This document shows, piece by piece, positions 12,553 to 21,198 of a stretch of 64,000 nucleotides of DNA. A program made the translations under genes and the position numbers. The notes beneath the pieces are model-generated. The model was not told where the DNA came from, made no database searches, and saw only the letters and a program-made list of their open reading frames with translations. Source of the DNA: Thermoproteota archaeon (GTDB lineage: Archaea > Thermoproteota > Thermoprotei > Gearchaeales > Gearchaeaceae); the NCBI GenBank assembly GCA_021324265.1, contig JAJPJK010000006.1:124001-188000 (forward strand). Reading direction: 5' to 3'. Positions within the stretch are counted from its first letter, which is position 1. Every line of letters begins with the position of its first letter.

Positions 12553-13212
12553 CTATTTGAGCTCTATTAGCTCCAATTCGACTAAGTCACCATCCTTTAA
12601 GCCTAGCTCTTTCCTTAGATTATGGGGGCTAATTACTTCGATAACACCTTCATCATAATGTGTCCTCTCCAAAGTGATTATCGACCCACGAAGTTTACCA
12701 TTGATCTTTGCAGGGAAACATTTGACCCAACCATATGTTCTGTATTTAGTCTTAGTTCCTGGGATGAAAATATGAGGATATGTTTCAAGGATGTATCTCG
12801 ATTTTGGTTCAACAAGTCTAAGGTTTAGTGTACCAGGAAATGGCTTGAACCCTAATTTTTCCAAAAATTGTGTTTCATAATATTTTCGAGTTACATAATA
12901 ACCACCTTCTCCAATTCCTGTGAAAACGATACCTTTAACTATCATGCCCATTGCCTCCTCCAAGTTCTTTTTTAACAGTAGATATATACTTTCTATAAAT
13001 TTCCTTCCTTCCTGGGTCAATGAAATTATTTCGCCTCTCACTGTTATTTCTCTTCGTATAATTCCAGATTTTTCGAGTTGAATGAGTTTCCTTGAAGCGT
13101 TTTGCTGGCTCATCCCCAATTCTTTTGCAAGTTTGACCGTAGAGATTTTTAATGGGGTTTTTAGGACCCCAAGCTCAACTAGTTTAAATATTAAATCATA
13201 GTTTTCTCTCAT
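12553..13212 (-). CDS. ribK: CTP-dependent riboflavin kinase with N-terminal winged helix
   Basis: The protein has 219 residues from the ATG at 13212; the track adds a TTG just before. The first ~85 residues form a winged helix (KLAKELGMSQQNASRKLIQLEKSG). The rest is the archaeal CTP-dependent riboflavin kinase (DUF120) with GIGEGGYYVTRKYYE, FLEKLGFKPFPGTLNL and a C-terminal ELGLKDGDLVELE. It makes FMN from riboflavin using CTP. Fusion to a winged helix is known in archaea and suggests the protein may also be a flavin-responsive repressor (RbkR type). It is divergent from an ECF S-component 52 bp away. Confidence 0.93.
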   Translation of the reverse strand: MRENYDLIFKLVELGVLKTPLKISTVKLAKELGMSQQNASRKLIQLEKSGIIRREITVRGEIISLTQEGRKFIESIYLLLKKNLEEAMGMIVKGIVFTGIGEGGYYVTRKYYETQFLEKLGFKPFPGTLNLRLVEPKSRYILETYPHIFIPGTKTKYRTYGWVKCFPAKINGKLRGSIITLERTHYDEGVIEVISPHNLRKELGLKDGDLVELELIELK

Positions 13213-13264
13213 CAACCAAAAAATTGGTAGCTACATATTTATAGTTTAGTACTAAAATCTGGTT
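13213..13264. promoter_or_regulatory. Divergent promoter with single central TATA, ribK / S-component
   Basis: A 52-bp spacer between two ATG starts. One TATTTATA element (13236-13243) sits about 25 nt from the + start and 27 nt from the - start, so a single TBP site could serve both genes. An RbkR-like repressor encoded by ribK could act here; that is inference. Confidence 0.5.
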
Positions 13265-13909
13265 ATGCGAAGCTTGCAAATAGCCATCATTGCCGTATTC
13301 GCTGCGATTATTTACTTACTTTCGACAACAGTGTCCAATTATATCTCTTATCCTATATTACCATATCTTAAGTTCGATCCAGCAGAGATCGTCATTATTT
13401 TATCTTTATTTCTTTTCGGCCCTGCAATAGCAATTATCCTTTCAGTGCTTCATTTTATTCTCCTTCATTTTCCATCTACGCAGTATCCTATAATAGGCCC
13501 TGGCTTGAAATTGCTGGCCGAGCTTTCAACGGTTTTCGCTGCATATTTAGCTTTCTCCTTCTCTAAGAGTAGGGACATAAGAGTTAGGCTTGTTTATAGT
13601 CTTTTATTGGCTTTAGTATTCAGAAATTTAGTCATGACGCTTGCCAATTATGTTATTTTGATGACTTTGTTTTCTGGCGCAGTAGATTATTTTTACCAAG
13701 GAATAGCTACTATTACAGGGCTTAGCGCAACTAGTTTCACAGATAAACTTTTTCTGATTTTGGTTTTTACTGCAGTATACAATTCCATTCATGTCTTTAT
13801 ATCAATATTGCCTGCATTTGTAATTTCAATAGTTCCTTCAATGCCTCAAATCGTAGCCCCTATAAGCAAACATTGGTTATATTCTATGATGCAAAGAAAT
13901 GGTAAATGA
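13265..13909 (+). CDS. ECF transporter S-component, probable riboflavin importer
   Basis: A 214-residue protein with about six membrane spans. The stretch LKFDPAEIVIILSLFLFGP matches the short hydrophilic loop plus span common to ECF S-components such as RibU. It is divergent from riboflavin kinase with a shared 52-bp promoter, which points to riboflavin as cargo: import followed by phosphorylation. No ECF ATPase or T-subunit gene lies in the window, so it probably shares an energising module encoded elsewhere. Confidence 0.72.
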   Translation: MRSLQIAIIAVFAAIIYLLSTTVSNYISYPILPYLKFDPAEIVIILSLFLFGPAIAIILSVLHFILLHFPSTQYPIIGPGLKLLAELSTVFAAYLAFSFSKSRDIRVRLVYSLLLALVFRNLVMTLANYVILMTLFSGAVDYFYQGIATITGLSATSFTDKLFLILVFTAVYNSIHVFISILPAFVISIVPSMPQIVAPISKHWLYSMMQRNGK

Positions 13910-14678: not shown

Positions 14679-16001
14679 TTAATGTTCTAATGTTTTTAAC
14701 GTCCTTAGATACTCGCTCCCTTGCTTTGTCAGGCATCGGATGTTAACTTTCCTATTCTTCACAGTTTGTGGAATAGAAGTTATGAAATTCATTTCTTCGA
14801 GTTGCTTTAAATGCTCATAAAGCGTAGGGAGTCTAATTTCGATACCTTTTTCTCTTAGTTTTTTCCATAGCTCATATCCACTAAGGCTATTTGTGGATAG
14901 AACTTCTAGAATCATGCGTTTAGTGAAGCCAATTTCTTGCCCAATTTTTAGCTTCTTAAAACCTTTATTCTTAATTAAACTCACGCTTCCAATTTCTTTG
15001 AGTCCTGAACCAGTAAGTATTATAAGGATTTTTGAACCCTCCTTTATCTTCTTATTTGCGATAAGCTTTTTAATAACAGGTAACGATATCGATGTAATTG
15101 GTTCTACGAGTATCCCCTCCTTTTTTGCAAATTCGTCCATAGCCTTTACCATTTCTTCTTTTCCCGCGGTAGCTTCTAAAAGTAATCCACTTTTTCCGAT
15201 TTCTTCGATTAAACCTTTGCAATAAAGAAATGAAGGATCTAAGTCTGCAAACGCTCGCGATGCTTCTTCATCTGGCTTTGCTCCAATGAATTTAATATCT
15301 TTGTTTACTAAACCGATCTCCTTCAACTCCCTAAACGCCTTGTAATTAGAAAATATGTTTGAACCCGAACCCATAGGCAATGCGATGTAGTCAGGCAGAT
15401 CTCCTTCAAAGTAATCAAAAATTTCAAGAAATTGGGTTTTCAATCCTTCTAAAAACATGGGATCAGCTGGTGTAATGAAGTCCTTTGCTTTTAAAAGAAC
15501 TTCATCATATTTCATACTGATTCTAGAACCAAACCATATCATCTGCAAAAGCTTAAAATGATTCACTCTTTCATGTACATATATATTCGCTTCTATGTTT
15601 GCCTTTGAACAATATGCAGCTATCGAGCAACCGAAATTGCCTGTAGTGAAGCATTTAATCGCTTTTTTACCGCAATCTTTAAGGAATGAAATATAGACTG
15701 CAGATCCGCGATCCATAAAAGATCCCGTAGGATTAGTTCCTTCATTTTTAAAGTATAGATCGATACCTAATTCCTTACTAATTTGCGTTGCCTTGATTAT
15801 GGGTGTATTTCCTTCTCCTAGCGATATTTTATTCGTAAGTTTGGGTAGAACAGCGTTGTACTTCCAAATTCCAATCTCTTTAGGATCCCTTGTAAATTCT
15901 AAATTATCATACTTTAGGACTAGAAAGCCATTGCAATTAGGGCATTTTTTAATATCTAAGTCTGAAGTCTCAAATTTGCATTCCAGGCATTTTAGAAACA
16001 T
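14679..16001 (-). CDS. Threonine synthase-like protein with winged helix, lacking the PLP lysine
   Basis: The protein has 440 residues from the ATG at 16001. The N-terminus is a zinc ribbon (C5, C8, C20, C23) as in archaeal threonine synthases. The fold-type II PLP domain follows, with EGTNPTGSF, TTGNFG, PMGSGSN and LTGSGLKE. The Lys that normally follows GSF and forms the Schiff base is Met96 (codon 15714-15716). Residues from about 350 are a PadR-like winged helix (LSGYELWKKLREKG, PTLYEHLKQLEEM). Losing the lysine while keeping the fold and gaining a DNA-binding domain suggests a ligand-sensing regulator rather than an enzyme. It is divergent from mptD. A single-base sequencing error could also produce the Met. 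Confidence 0.8.
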   Translation of the reverse strand: MFLKCLECKFETSDLDIKKCPNCNGFLVLKYDNLEFTRDPKEIGIWKYNAVLPKLTNKISLGEGNTPIIKATQISKELGIDLYFKNEGTNPTGSFMDRGSAVYISFLKDCGKKAIKCFTTGNFGCSIAAYCSKANIEANIYVHERVNHFKLLQMIWFGSRISMKYDEVLLKAKDFITPADPMFLEGLKTQFLEIFDYFEGDLPDYIALPMGSGSNIFSNYKAFRELKEIGLVNKDIKFIGAKPDEEASRAFADLDPSFLYCKGLIEEIGKSGLLLEATAGKEEMVKAMDEFAKKEGILVEPITSISLPVIKKLIANKKIKEGSKILIILTGSGLKEIGSVSLIKNKGFKKLKIGQEIGFTKRMILEVLSTNSLSGYELWKKLREKGIEIRLPTLYEHLKQLEEMNFITSIPQTVKNRKVNIRCLTKQGSEYLRTLKTLEH

Positions 16002-16016
16002 CAAAATAAATTATGC

Positions 16017-16412
16017 ATGGATACTTTAAATATGGAAGATAGAGCCAATAAATATTTTGAAGGATCTTTAAGTGAAAGAGAAAGAGCGATTTTTGAGCTT
16101 GGGATAGCACTAGCTTTTGTTTATCATCAGTTTCTTGGAACTCCATTCAAAGCTAAGGATAAGGAGGCACTTGAAAAAGCTATAGAAGCCGCAATATTGT
16201 CTCAACCTTTTAGAGTGTTTGCAAAGGTTGAACTCAGCAGCGAAGCAAAAGAAGATAACCCTTATTCATATAATGAAATCACACCGAGGAATTTAAAGGT
16301 GGAAATAAAAGTTAAATACGGATCAAGCATTGTAACGGGTAGTTTAATGTGGGTAGAAGAGCTAAATTATCCTCTAATGCATGTGAAAAAAATTGAACGG
16401 GTTCAGGAATAA
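16017..16412 (+). CDS. mptD: Archaeal dihydroneopterin aldolase, MptD type
   Basis: The protein has 131 residues; an alternative ATG at 16032 (MEDRANKYFEG) would shorten it by five. It matches the archaea-specific MptD family (DUF372): ERAIFELGIALAFVYHQFLG, then KEALEKAIEAAI and a C-terminal NYPLMHVKKIE. MptD converts 7,8-dihydroneopterin to 6-hydroxymethyl-dihydropterin. It ends 10 bp inside the convergent mptE gene, whose product uses the aldolase product, so the two consecutive steps are adjacent. Confidence 0.88.
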   Translation: MDTLNMEDRANKYFEGSLSERERAIFELGIALAFVYHQFLGTPFKAKDKEALEKAIEAAILSQPFRVFAKVELSSEAKEDNPYSYNEITPRNLKVEIKVKYGSSIVTGSLMWVEELNYPLMHVKKIERVQE

Positions 16413-17185
16413 GCAAGCTTTACAAAGTCCTTTATATTTATTCGCTTAAATCCTTCAATCTCTACGCCACCATTTGTGAGATTGAATAACTCAATTTCCT
16501 TTCCCTTCTCTATGTTTTTCTTAGCGAAGTACTCAAGTAATTCTTTTGCTATCTTGAGTTTTTGTATTTTCTTTGTTCTATCGAAGATTATAGGCTTTGA
16601 ATACTTACCTACCTCTTCCTCTAAATTCATTCCGACCAAAGTAATGCTTTTGGGTTTGAAGTATCCTGCAATGTAAACAGCCCTATCACCATCGGTAAAG
16701 CCACCAAAGTTGTAAACTTTCTCCTTAGGTTTTACTTGTGTGGTTCCCATGATTTTTTCAAGTTTTGGTACATAAGTGGTGACTTCGATCTTATTGTCGC
16801 CATGTGCATGAACAATAGCTATGCTTCCATTTTTTGAACATAAGACTTGCTCTTTTGGGAAACCATCCAAATCAGTTACTATCAATTCAGGAGGTGCGTC
16901 AAAAACTTCTAAGAAAGCTTTTGTAGCTCCGTCACATGTAATGAATACTAGGTTTTTTCTGTTTACTCTTTTCAAGCTTTCAAGATCTTCAATCACAGAT
17001 GGACCAGCACCAACAACTACTGCATGTTTATTTTGTATTAATGGTTTGATATCGCTAGGCTCATATGCTCTATGCCTTATAAGTACGCTAAGAAGCTCTG
17101 CAGCTCTTTCATCCTCAATGGGAGATAATCTTAATCGTTTTGCGATGTCTTCGTACAGCTTGAACCATTCTTCTAGGGAAATCAT
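16403..17185 (-). CDS. mptE: 6-hydroxymethyl-7,8-dihydropterin pyrophosphokinase, MptE type
   Basis: The protein has 260 residues from the ATG at 17185. It belongs to the archaeal MptE family (DUF115), unrelated to bacterial FolK. Visible motifs are VVVGAGPSVIEDL, FITCDGATKAF, IVTDLDG and NFGGFTDGDRAV. It activates 6-hydroxymethyl-dihydropterin by diphosphorylation for coupling to the aryl amine. It lies 3' to the RFAP synthase gene on the same strand (42-bp gap) and overlaps mptD tail to tail. Confidence 0.9.
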   Translation of the reverse strand: MISLEEWFKLYEDIAKRLRLSPIEDERAAELLSVLIRHRAYEPSDIKPLIQNKHAVVVGAGPSVIEDLESLKRVNRKNLVFITCDGATKAFLEVFDAPPELIVTDLDGFPKEQVLCSKNGSIAIVHAHGDNKIEVTTYVPKLEKIMGTTQVKPKEKVYNFGGFTDGDRAVYIAGYFKPKSITLVGMNLEEEVGKYSKPIIFDRTKKIQKLKIAKELLEYFAKKNIEKGKEIELFNLTNGGVEIEGFKRINIKDFVKLAYS

Positions 17186-17227
17186 AACCAATTATTATAT
17201 TCTTCATTGAGTATTAATTTTTATCAT

Positions 17228-18139
17228 CTACGTCTTTATTCTATAACCATAATTATCTGCAAAAACCATTTTAATTTCAATATTATTGGATAACTTATCT
17301 TTCAAGTTCTCTATTTTTAAATCATCTTTGGAGAAAAGACCATATACTGTAGGTCCCCATGAACTCTGTCCTGCACCCTTAGCACCGTTCTTAAGCAGGA
17401 ATTCTATAAGTTTTTCTATCTTTTGGCTAGTGAAAATGCCTCCCTGTGTTTCCTTGAAGTTCAAACCCACTAGATATTGGAATTTAGTAAGCGAAGAGCC
17501 GAATTTTTCAATATCCTCTTCTTTGATGCTATCCTTCATACTGAATAAGAGAGAATACATCTCATCTATCCTCTCCTTCGGCGTAGGTTTTATTCTATTT
17601 ATCAATTTGTACTCAATATCTTCGGTTAAACCCTTAGTCATTTCTTGGTCGCGTGCTGTTACGAAAACCCATTCTTTTGGGAAATCATGTCTAAATTCTA
17701 TCTTTGGAACATCTTCAATTTTGCCAGAATCTATTATAAAACCACCACTTATGAACGCAGCGATGCCGATCCCGGATATTTTACCTATTCCTAGTTCTTT
17801 GGCTTCCTTGTAAGGGTCAAAGTACATATTGTTTATCTTATGGCATGCATAAGCAAAAGACAGACAAAGTTGAGTAGTAGAACCCAATCCTATGTGGCTG
17901 GGTATTTCTTCGATAATTCGAAATGAGATTTTCTTTTTAAATTTCTTGGCGTAGAGCTTCAGCCTTTCTTCTATTTCTTTTCTACTAAAATTAATTAGGT
18001 GTATCTCATCGTTTTCCTTAAATTCCGCTACTAATTTCTTTTCGCAGATTGCGCAGCCAGCACATTTATATAAAGGATACGTAGGGTTATTCAGATTGAC
18101 TATTCCGAAGTGCAATCTTGAAGGGGATTCAATGATCAC
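17228..18139 (-). CDS. Beta-ribofuranosylaminobenzene 5'-phosphate synthase
   Basis: A 303-residue protein starting with GTG at 18139. It has the GHMP-kinase fold with SPSRLHFGIVNL at the N-terminus, HIGLGSTTQLCLSFA near residue 90 and KGAGQSSWGPTVYG near residue 270, all typical of RFAP synthase. The enzyme joins PRPP and 4-hydroxybenzoate with loss of CO2, the committed step of methanopterin-type cofactor synthesis. It overlaps the DUF447 gene by 11 bp. A CAGCAIC cysteine pair near residue 28 stands out as a possible metal site. Confidence 0.88.
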   Translation of the reverse strand: MIIESPSRLHFGIVNLNNPTYPLYKCAGCAICEKKLVAEFKENDEIHLINFSRKEIEERLKLYAKKFKKKISFRIIEEIPSHIGLGSTTQLCLSFAYACHKINNMYFDPYKEAKELGIGKISGIGIAAFISGGFIIDSGKIEDVPKIEFRHDFPKEWVFVTARDQEMTKGLTEDIEYKLINRIKPTPKERIDEMYSLLFSMKDSIKEEDIEKFGSSLTKFQYLVGLNFKETQGGIFTSQKIEKLIEFLLKNGAKGAGQSSWGPTVYGLFSKDDLKIENLKDKLSNNIEIKMVFADNYGYRIKT

Positions 18140-18770
18140 TTTTGAATTTTAAGTTACTATCTACTATCTTATTAATCTCATCCATAATTCTTGTGTATTT
18201 GCTATTTGGAGCTATTCTTCTAATCAACTTATCATAGTGATCTATTAGCGAAACAAGTCTATCTACTTCTTCGTATAGCTTCATTTCCATGAAAACTTTT
18301 ATCCTTGTAGAATGAATCAATGCCTCTATTACAGCAAATTCTACTCGTGTAAATGGCCTTTCATATGTTTTCTTAGCATAAACATAGACAGGTTCTAATA
18401 TGAAACTTGCTCTTACTTCATTTTCATCAATCTTTTTTACTCTCCCTTCGATGTAGAAATTTGATTCCTTTAATCGAGGTATTTTTAATTTGTAAGAAGG
18501 GAAGAAATCGCTTTTTGAAGCGGTTCCATATGTTGCTTTAAAAAACAATTCGATATCATTAACTATATTGATTACTCCCATGCCTTTATTTTTCAAATAA
18601 TTGTAGCTGCGTGTATCTTTGAAAGGCCTCACAACAATATCGTACTCATCATTGAATGAAAAACCCATCGAAGCCATATGCGGATTTCCTTCATTGTTTT
18701 CTGTTGTTAATATACCTTCATAAATTATGTTAGGTTCAAAGATGAGCTTAAGCATTTTTTTCTTCGGCAT
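18129..18770 (-). CDS. DUF447 family flavin-binding-barrel protein
   Basis: A 213-residue protein of the archaeal DUF447 family, with a split-barrel FMN-binding-like first half (IIYEGILTTENNEGNPHMAS, then VVRPFKDTRSYNYL) and a helical C-terminus. It sits directly upstream of the RFAP synthase gene with an 11-bp overlap, on the same strand. The biochemical role is not settled. The gene order argues that it acts in pterin cofactor synthesis. Confidence 0.78.
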   Translation of the reverse strand: MPKKKMLKLIFEPNIIYEGILTTENNEGNPHMASMGFSFNDEYDIVVRPFKDTRSYNYLKNKGMGVINIVNDIELFFKATYGTASKSDFFPSYKLKIPRLKESNFYIEGRVKKIDENEVRASFILEPVYVYAKKTYERPFTRVEFAVIEALIHSTRIKVFMEMKLYEEVDRLVSLIDHYDKLIRRIAPNSKYTRIMDEINKIVDSNLKFKSDH

Positions 18771-18814
18771 AAGTATATTATTTACAAAGCTTATGATATT
18801 TTAAACAGCGTTAT

Positions 18815-20365
18815 ATGGTCATCCTGCTCGTAACTGGTCAACTTGCAAAGAAGATAGTTGAGGATCAAGCTAGGAAGTGCAAGAAAGAAGTTAAGGTTGT
18901 ATCCTTAAACTTTCCTGTAGCATCACTGATGAGACCTGCTTATATTTTAAGAGAGTTAAGACCATTCATCGATAAGGATATAGAATGTATAATGGTTCCA
19001 GGTCTTGTTCGAGGGGATCTAAGCATTATAGAGAAGGAACTTGGAGTAAAGGTTGTTAAAGGACCAAAGCATGCTTATGATATATCTTTCGTGATCAATA
19101 GCTTCGATGTAAAAGAGTTGTCAAAGGAAATACCTGCTGATGATTTGATTAAGGAAAAAATTAAGAGGCATGTCGAGACTGAGTTGATGAAATTCGAGGA
19201 AGATGACTCGATTTTGAAAAAGCAAGGTAATTATAGGATTAGAAATTTGAAATATGGAATAGATGCGCCAGTCAGAATAATTGCTGAAATCGTCGATGCA
19301 CCACTTCTTTCAAAGGACGAGCTAAAAAGGCAAATTGGATACTATGTTAGCTCTGGCGCTGATATTTTAGACTTAGGGATGGTAGCAAATGAGAACCATG
19401 CAGGAGAATTAAAAGACATGATAAATTTTGTATGGCATTTAACAAACATTCCATTAAGCATCGATTCAATGGAAGCGGATGAAATCAATGAAGCAATAAA
19501 AGCTGGCATAGACATGGTTATTAGCTTAGACAAATCGCTGTTGTATAAGGTAACACCTGAAGATAAAGTTCACTATGTAGTTGTACCTATAGATCTTTCA
19601 GCATCTTACTTTCCAAAGACTCACAGAGGAAGAGTGGAGTTTCTTGAAGAAATAATATCATTGGCGAAAAGTAAAGGTTTCAGAAATATTATTGCAGATG
19701 TAATCCTTGATCCTCCTTTTTCGAAGTCGTTATTGGATTCATTTGTAGCTTATAAGATGCTCAGAGAGAAAGATCCCTATCTACCCATTCTATTAGGAAC
19801 TGGAAATATTACCGAGCTTATAGATGCAGACACGCCCGGTATGAATGCGTTACTTACTATGATCGCATATGAGCTCAATGCTTCATTCATTCTCAGCACT
19901 GAAGTTAGTGACAAGTGCAGAGGCGTCATTAAAGAGTTGTCTATCGCATCTAAAATGGGCTTCATTTCCAGATTGAAAAATACTTATCCTAAAGGAGTTG
20001 GTTTCGATCTTCTAATATTGAGAGACAAAAAACTGAAAGATGAAACACCTGAAGAAGATATAGCTGAAATCATAAGAGTGGAAGATAATGAAAATTTCCA
20101 TGTTCAGGATCCAAAGGGCTGGTTTAAGATATACGTTGATAGGAATAATGATGAAATAATAGTGCATTATAAACCTTCTTATCGTGATACTAAGAGCGGT
20201 TTAATAATAAAAGGTAAGTCACCCTCTTCAATATATAGGAAGATCGCCGAGCTTGGTTTAATTTCAAGATTTGAGCATGCCGCCTATTTAGGTTCAGAAC
20301 TTCAAAAAGCATACATTGCACTTAAACTTGGCCGTAGCTACATTCAGGACTCCGATCTTTTCTAA
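18815..20365 (+). CDS. Dihydropteroate synthase-like protein of the methanopterin pathway
   Basis: A 516-residue protein in three parts. The N-terminal ~140 residues (LLVTGQLAKKIVEDQARK) form an archaea-specific domain. A pterin-binding TIM barrel spans about 145-390, with GADILDLGMVANE and LSIDSMEADE. The C-terminal DUF4346-like domain has DPKGWFKIYVDRNNDE and RFEHAAYLGSELQKAYIAL. It resembles the Methanocaldococcus MJ0107 family and may condense the activated pterin with beta-RFAP. It is divergent from DUF447 (44-bp gap) and completes a five-gene pterin cluster. Confidence 0.82.
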   Translation: MVILLVTGQLAKKIVEDQARKCKKEVKVVSLNFPVASLMRPAYILRELRPFIDKDIECIMVPGLVRGDLSIIEKELGVKVVKGPKHAYDISFVINSFDVKELSKEIPADDLIKEKIKRHVETELMKFEEDDSILKKQGNYRIRNLKYGIDAPVRIIAEIVDAPLLSKDELKRQIGYYVSSGADILDLGMVANENHAGELKDMINFVWHLTNIPLSIDSMEADEINEAIKAGIDMVISLDKSLLYKVTPEDKVHYVVVPIDLSASYFPKTHRGRVEFLEEIISLAKSKGFRNIIADVILDPPFSKSLLDSFVAYKMLREKDPYLPILLGTGNITELIDADTPGMNALLTMIAYELNASFILSTEVSDKCRGVIKELSIASKMGFISRLKNTYPKGVGFDLLILRDKKLKDETPEEDIAEIIRVEDNENFHVQDPKGWFKIYVDRNNDEIIVHYKPSYRDTKSGLIIKGKSPSSIYRKIAELGLISRFEHAAYLGSELQKAYIALKLGRSYIQDSDLF

Positions 20366-20424: not shown

Positions 20425-21198
20425 ATGCAAATGAATAGAGCTAGATTTGTAGCATATACAGCAATCTGCGCTGCATTATATGCTGTATCAATAGTGATAT
20501 TTGCCTTCATACCAACACCTTGGGGCGTTGGTCATTTTAGACCAACAGTCATAATACCCCAGTTTTTCGCTTTCCTTGGAGGTCCTTGGGTTGCAGCAAT
20601 AGGCGCTGCGATTGGTACTTTTCTAGGAGATGTATTTGGCTTATATCCTGCTGGTTTGAGCAACCCCCTTTTGTCTTTAATTGCAGGTGTTCCAGCAAAT
20701 TTCTTTGGTTTCTTATTATTTGGTTATTTAATTAAAAGATTCAATACATGGCAAGATTTTATATGGGTATCTTTGGTCTCCTTATTCATAGGGAATTTAA
20801 TAGCGGGAATGGCTGTCGCCTTCTCTTTAGGTATAGTATTCAATCCTTCAGTGGGTTATACTACAACATATAGGCTTTATACGGGAATGGGTCTAACTCT
20901 ATTTTGGCTTGTTACGATGCTACCATTCACATATGGAATAACGCCTTTGCTTGTACGCTATATATTTCCGGTTGCACCGTATGCTGTTGTTATGAAAGGA
21001 GGGTCATTTTCTGGTTCAAGGATAGCTGCAATTATTGTAGGTGTTTTGCTTCTCGCTGTAGCGTTTGCAGTAGTATTCCCATTCAGTACTATCTTCGATA
21101 ATAGCTTTCATAGTATCAATGTTAGTATTAGTGCGCTTGAATTTGGTATATTTGTGTTTATAGCTGGTCTGGTAGCGATTGTGATTGCATCGCTCTGA
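20425..21198 (+). CDS. ECF transporter S-component next to pantoate kinase
   Basis: A 257-residue membrane protein with six or more spans. The N-terminal half (HFRPTVIIPQFFAFLGGPW, then IGAAIGTFLGD) is the general ECF S-component pattern. The C-terminal ~70 residues add two hydrophobic segments. It ends 4 bp before the likely GTG of the pantoate kinase gene, so the two form one transcript. Adjacency suggests pantoate or a related CoA precursor as cargo; the pterin cluster on the other side makes a pterin or folate-like cargo an alternative. No ECF energising module is in the window. Confidence 0.68.
   Translation: MQMNRARFVAYTAICAALYAVSIVIFAFIPTPWGVGHFRPTVIIPQFFAFLGGPWVAAIGAAIGTFLGDVFGLYPAGLSNPLLSLIAGVPANFFGFLLFGYLIKRFNTWQDFIWVSLVSLFIGNLIAGMAVAFSLGIVFNPSVGYTTTYRLYTGMGLTLFWLVTMLPFTYGITPLLVRYIFPVAPYAVVMKGGSFSGSRIAAIIVGVLLLAVAFAVVFPFSTIFDNSFHSINVSISALEFGIFVFIAGLVAIVIASL

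Follow-up and report, generated by a model that had tools for sequence, protein, structure and literature searches.

What does a threonine synthase do once it has lost its Schiff-base lysine and gained a winged helix? The question is raised by one gene in a 64,000-nucleotide stretch (the window) of a contig from a Thermoproteota archaeon. A first-pass annotation, made from the letters alone, took its product for a transcription regulator, a catalytically dead fold-type II domain followed by a winged helix, analogous to bacterial MocR/PdxR. Comparative genomics supports that core proposal. On the evidence of sequence we consider it likely that the fusion is a vitamin B6 regulator, in which a dead threonine synthase senses pyridoxal phosphate (PLP) and the winged helix binds a palindrome and controls a B6-supply regulon. 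Our best reading is that it is the archaeal counterpart of bacterial PdxR/MocR, with an independent origin from a fold-type II enzyme. With somewhat less assurance, we take it to be the first PLP-sensing transcription regulator in archaea and the first derived from a fold-type II PLP enzyme, with a reversible PLP signal, a regulon convergent on that of PdxR and a palindromic operator of its own. We know of no account of how archaea regulate vitamin B6, and our search of the open-licence literature for the fusion or for an archaeal B6 regulator found neither described. MocR factors have been reported as absent from archaea (PMC5320631), and in most prokaryotes the transporters for B6 are still listed as a gap (PMC9997740).

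The frame of the gene (Table 1) contains no internal stop. The protein matches the PALP family with 152 bits (residues 59 to 331) and PadR (PF03551) with 33.6 bits against a cutoff of 27 (residues 364 to 433), both in Pfam, and zinc-ribbon cysteines C5, C8, C20, and C23 are invariant in a 32-row alignment. An AlphaFold2 model built with 32 related fusions had a mean pLDDT of 89.4, with disorder only in the linker (residues 333 to 355), and its nearest solved folds in a Foldseek search of the PDB were threonine synthases (E of about 1e-25; TM score by target, 0.79). The features first read from the letters were thus all recovered: the motif GSFMDRG with an ATG codon exactly at the place given, the zinc ribbon and the TTGNFG and LTGSGLK segments (the four cysteines, Asn122, and Thr330 are present), and a winged helix after the enzyme fold.

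Table 1. Features of the fusion gene, its protein, and the predicted operator and target (window positions unless a contig is given)
Feature	Position	Strand	Remarks	Basis
Fusion gene: zinc ribbon, Lys-less threonine-synthase fold, PadR-type winged helix	14679-16001	-	440 aa	
Possible alternative start, TTG, one codon upstream of fusion gene	16002-16004	-		
Zinc ribbon, N-terminal	15912-16001	-	residues 1-30	alignment
Fold-type II (threonine-synthase-like) domain	14991-15872	-	residues 44-337	Pfam, AlphaFold2, Foldseek
Met96, at Schiff-base lysine position	15714-15716	-	Lys61 of T. thermophilus ThrC	alignment, translation
Asn122, PLP O3' contact	15636-15638	-	Asn87 of T. thermophilus ThrC	alignment
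Phe183, at substrate-phosphate Arg position	15453-15455	-	Arg160 of T. thermophilus ThrC	alignment
GSGSN, PLP phosphate-binding loop	15357-15371	-	residues 211-215; ThrC, GNAGN	alignment
Thr330, PLP N1 contact	15012-15014	-	Thr317 of T. thermophilus ThrC	alignment
Flexible linker	14931-14990	-	residues 338-357	AlphaFold2, pLDDT <50 at residues 333-355
PadR-type winged helix, C-terminal	14682-14930	-	residues 358-440	Pfam, AlphaFold2
Candidate operator CCTATATATAGG	G000:C20:89467-89478		upstream of S-component gene	
Predicted target, PF07155 S-component gene	G000:C20:89515-90174		same long type, 88 bits; outside window, 49 kb from fusion	

Among 398 Thermoproteota genomes, a profile search detected the fusion at full or nearly full length in at least about 100, spanning about 37 families (n = 101); a search of GTDB contigs with the window protein as sole query gave three distant bacterial enzymes and nothing else. 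Residues were counted in 101 fusion sequences, the window's included, and compared with 27 ThrC sequences and 6 other unfused relatives; the numbering of Thermus thermophilus ThrC was taken from the alignment. The Schiff-base lysine is lost in 99 of the 101 fusions (Arg in 50, Leu in 28, Thr in 9, Met in 5, Ile in 4, and Val, Phe, and Ala in 1 each) and kept in all 27 ThrC and all 6 other relatives. The equivalent of Arg160, the arginine that binds the substrate phosphate in ThrC structures, is gone from all 101 and present in 27/27 ThrC, and those of Thr85, Thr88, and Asn188, which contact the substrate in ThrC, are replaced in nearly all or most fusions. The contacts to PLP, in ThrC an asparagine to O3', a glycine loop to the phosphate, and a threonine to N1, are retained: the equivalent of Asn122 in 100, that of Thr330 in 96, and the loop glycines in 99 to 101 of the 101 sequences. 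This indicates that the catalytic part of the site is gone and the PLP-holding part preserved.

Since 99 of the 101 fusions, taken from about 100 genomes each sequenced separately, lack the lysine and 33/33 unfused homologues have it, Met96 is no sequencing slip, and the misread codon named earlier as a refuting possibility can be set aside. The expectation that every fusion would lack the lysine held with two exceptions (L122 and L131), which are related Arg-type fusions that have regained it and still lack the substrate arginine. As these two are nested within a Lys-less clade and are also without that arginine, they do not refute the loss. In a maximum-likelihood tree computed without the lysine column, a branch (SH-aLRT, 78) separated the fusions from a ThrC group (99), and the cheapest history of the lysine comprised two changes, one loss and one regain in the L122/L131 pair inside the Arg-type clade. 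The fusions divided into an Arg-type clade of 54 rows (support, 99) and a mixed Leu/Thr/Met/Ile clade of 47 rows (support, 96). The window protein falls in the mixed clade, its exact placement being unsure because of its long branch. A separate, true threonine synthase, for which the first-pass annotation had advised looking, is encoded in the window genome (G000), where an intact ThrC with GSFKDRGMT lies on contig C12.

The genes beside the fusion are mainly those of B6 supply. An ECF transporter S component lies within 1.5 kb of the fusion in 62/101 loci from 19 families, following the fusion on its strand in 41 and divergent from it in 20, and in several genomes of family f15 the operon order is fusion, S component, ECF ATPase-like gene, and a membrane protein at the place of the T component. 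All seven fusion-adjacent S components tested matched PF07155 with 57 to 121 bits (cutoff, 26.7). Their nearest solved structure is that of HmpT (4hzu chain S), of whose ligand residues Glu41 is conserved as E or D, while His84 is replaced by Lys and Gln87 by Glu; sequence by itself does not fix the substrate. Of the three characterized B6 transporters, PdxU and PdxU2/HmpT belong to PF07155 (PMC9997740), and pyridoxamine was extracted from and bound by HmpT (PMC4860826). In three loci (G088 and G122 of family f19 and G197 of f49) pdxS-pdxT is divergent from the fusion, which is the arrangement described for bacterial PdxR (PMC5320631).

PdxS itself is depleted where the fusion occurs. It was present in 11/101 fusion genomes versus 176/297 others (absent from 90/101 versus 121/297), with a Fisher p value of 1.6e-18 that is uncorrected for kinship and overstates independence, since PdxS absence is phylogenetically clustered. 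The direction was the same within families (f15, p = 0.054; f22, p = 0.017). The fusion thus goes mainly with B6 import. Searches of the window genome for PdxS and PdxT found neither, and its family neighbor G001 has PdxS and no fusion among the matches listed.

The regions upstream of mixed-clade fusions have a common palindrome, CCTATATATAGG or CCTACATATAGG, about six bases past the TATA box and adjoining the start codon. Exact matches to the 12-bp pattern CCTAYATRTAGG were therefore sought in whole genomes. The 46 fusion genomes contained 39 sites, of which 22, in 21 genomes, are at the fusion gene, 5 are upstream of S-component genes (G000, G102, G115, G175, and G216), and 1 is 50 bp upstream of pdxS (G102); the remaining 11 are nearly all within coding sequence. 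The reversed pattern gave 21 sites, and 46 genomes without a detected fusion had 6 sites, none of them near their pdxS. In G102, the most informative case, the fusion is on another contig and the only two exact sites precede pdxS and an S component, which links the transporter with B6 even if its sequence family is left aside. The palindrome abuts the TATA/BRE from upstream at pdxS and at most promoters of unlinked S components. The S-component site of G102 is downstream of the TATA box, which favors repression there. Within the fusion tree the operator was seen in the non-Arg half alone; upstream of Arg-type fusions no common palindrome rose above shuffles.

The 1.45 Mb of the window genome hold a single exact CCTAYATRTAGG site, which precedes a PF07155 gene by 49 bp and, by some 26 bases, a TATA box placed as for a leaderless transcript. 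The spacer at 16002 to 16016, proposed earlier as a place for DNA-binding tests, has no operator: no site with up to two mismatches was found at the start of the window fusion, and near-sites at 20228 and 20863, with two mismatches each, are no better than background. The predicted target is instead the distant S-component gene of Table 1.

We propose that a threonine synthase was duplicated in early Thermoproteota and that the duplicate lost its Schiff-base lysine and substrate-phosphate arginine, retained the PLP cradle, and acquired a C-terminal PadR-type winged helix. The dead enzyme domain most likely holds PLP, or a PLP-amino acid adduct, noncovalently as a measure of B6 status, and its binding would be reversible because the lysine is gone. 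Ligand binding would then alter how the winged-helix dimer binds the palindrome. Where this lies between the TATA box and the start codon of the fusion's own gene, binding should repress that gene. Sites before the TATA/BRE, as at pdxS and most unlinked S components, would allow either activation at low PLP or repression at high PLP; in bacteria, apo-PdxR activates when PLP is low. The regulon would be B6 supply, comprising the PF07155 ECF transporter and, where present, pdxST. In the window organism, which is without pdxST, the S-component gene is the predicted sole direct target.

The proposed analogy with MocR/PdxR gains from the clade-wide loss of lysine, the retained PLP-holding residues, the separate ThrC, the linkage to PF07155 S components and pdxST, and the common operator. 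Like PdxR, MocR, and GabR, the fusion would join an enzyme-derived PLP sensor to a winged helix. The genes concerned, pdxST and a PF07155-type transporter, also recall bacterial PdxR, whose regulons hold pdxST, pdxK, and pdxU and which is often divergent from pdxST (PMC5320631). In contrast to MocR proteins, which have a fold-type I aminotransferase domain and an N-terminal GntR winged helix, the archaeal fusion has a fold-type II PALP domain, a C-terminal PadR winged helix, and no Schiff-base lysine. Standalone PadR regulators have the winged helix in common with it (PF03551) but no PLP-enzyme sensor. RbkR, a bifunctional archaeal protein (PMC8305020), is likewise a vitamin regulator made of a vitamin-related enzyme domain and a helix-turn-helix; it differs in folds and vitamin and retains its enzyme activity, which the fusion should not. 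If our reading is right, bacteria and archaea would each have made a PLP sensor from a PLP enzyme of unrelated fold, a clean case of convergent evolution, and at least about one in four of the 398 sampled Thermoproteota genomes would gain a named regulator, with an operator and a candidate transporter.

It is conceivable, if unlikely, that the fusion regulates B6 genes by sensing an amino acid or phospho-compound (e.g., threonine or O-phosphohomoserine) that stands in for demand, and not PLP. The fold is descended from threonine synthase, the arginine at the lysine position of the Arg-type clade could hold a phosphate, and in family f23 a true thrC is divergent from the fusion in seven loci (L109, L112, L063, L102, L094, L095, and L108), which could hint at threonine; against this, it is the substrate contacts (Arg160, Thr85, Thr88, and Asn188) that were replaced in nearly all fusions and the PLP contacts that were retained, and the linked genes in most lineages are B6 genes. 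A threonine/serine regulon was considered and rejected, the neighbors of the window gene being pterin and flavin genes and the thrC linkage being confined to f23. The threonine and serine genes suggested earlier as targets showed no operator.

We regard it as quite improbable that another vitamin carried by PF07155 proteins is the one controlled, such as riboflavin, which the title of the family (riboflavin transporter S component) names, or the thiamine precursor hydroxymethylpyrimidine, for which HmpT was first predicted. The operator 50 bp before pdxS in G102 is the same one, two families show a divergent arrangement of pdxST and the fusion, fusions occur where PdxS is missing, and the window already has an RbkR-like gene for riboflavin control.

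Even less probable is that the protein is still catalytic, as a divergent threonine synthase or some other PLP enzyme to which a DNA-binding domain was added. Two fusions do carry the lysine, but both are nested in the Arg-type clade, the substrate arginine is missing throughout, and the residues that replace the lysine are chemically unlike each other. The fusion is homologous to ThrC (EC 4.2.3.1) and shares its fold over the zinc ribbon and PLP domain, including the PLP-holding residues; it differs in lacking the lysine and arginine and in its winged helix, and true ThrC accompanies it both in the window genome and in those of family f23. The enzyme reading has the name of NCBIfam PRK05638 (NF004170, "threonine synthase," 442 aa) on its side. 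This model describes the fusion itself: the 12 genomes above its cutoff all carry Arg-type fusions, so its best members belong to a family whose sequences cannot support the activity implied. To judge by those sequences, the name is apparently wrong, and unless it is changed annotators would count a second threonine synthase in fusion genomes. The window protein scores far under the cutoffs of both PRK05638 (234.3 bits versus 421) and TIGR00260 (112.1 versus 167.1).

That the window gene is a decaying pseudogene, as its very long branch (1.64), the absence of about 20 residues found in relatives, and an operator not beside the gene might suggest, is hardly credible given the intact 440-aa frame, the conserved PLP-holding residues, zinc cysteines, and winged helix, the confident model, and the single intact operator upstream of the predicted target.

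Several other genes were noted near the fusions. The thrC-fusion pair of f23 is perhaps a relic of tandem duplication, or thrC may be a regulated PLP enzyme. In about 23 loci (e.g., L143:4214-5224(-) and L204:343-1377(-)) the S component is followed by a gene of the AIR-synthase family (HypE/ThiL-like), whose product is possibly a B6 salvage enzyme. A deoxyhypusine-synthase-like gene (L211:3743-4756 and L157:4898-6001) lies behind the predicted target of the window genome and, in family f19, beside the fusion.

Within the window, another PF07155 S component, with a weaker match of 36 bits, lies at 20425-21198(+) beside a GHMP kinase gene and is without a B6 operator; a candidate operator there was rejected, the two-mismatch sites being at background level. 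An RbkR-like helix-turn-helix with a CTP-dependent riboflavin kinase, at 12553-13215(-), is divergent from an ECF S component (PF12822) at 13265-13909(+), and the pair is another case of a vitamin regulator derived from an enzyme next to a presumed transporter. A pterin-type cluster at 16017-20365, with an archaeal dihydroneopterin aldolase (PF04038), a GHMP kinase, DUF447, and neighbors, begins 15 bases from the start codon of the fusion.
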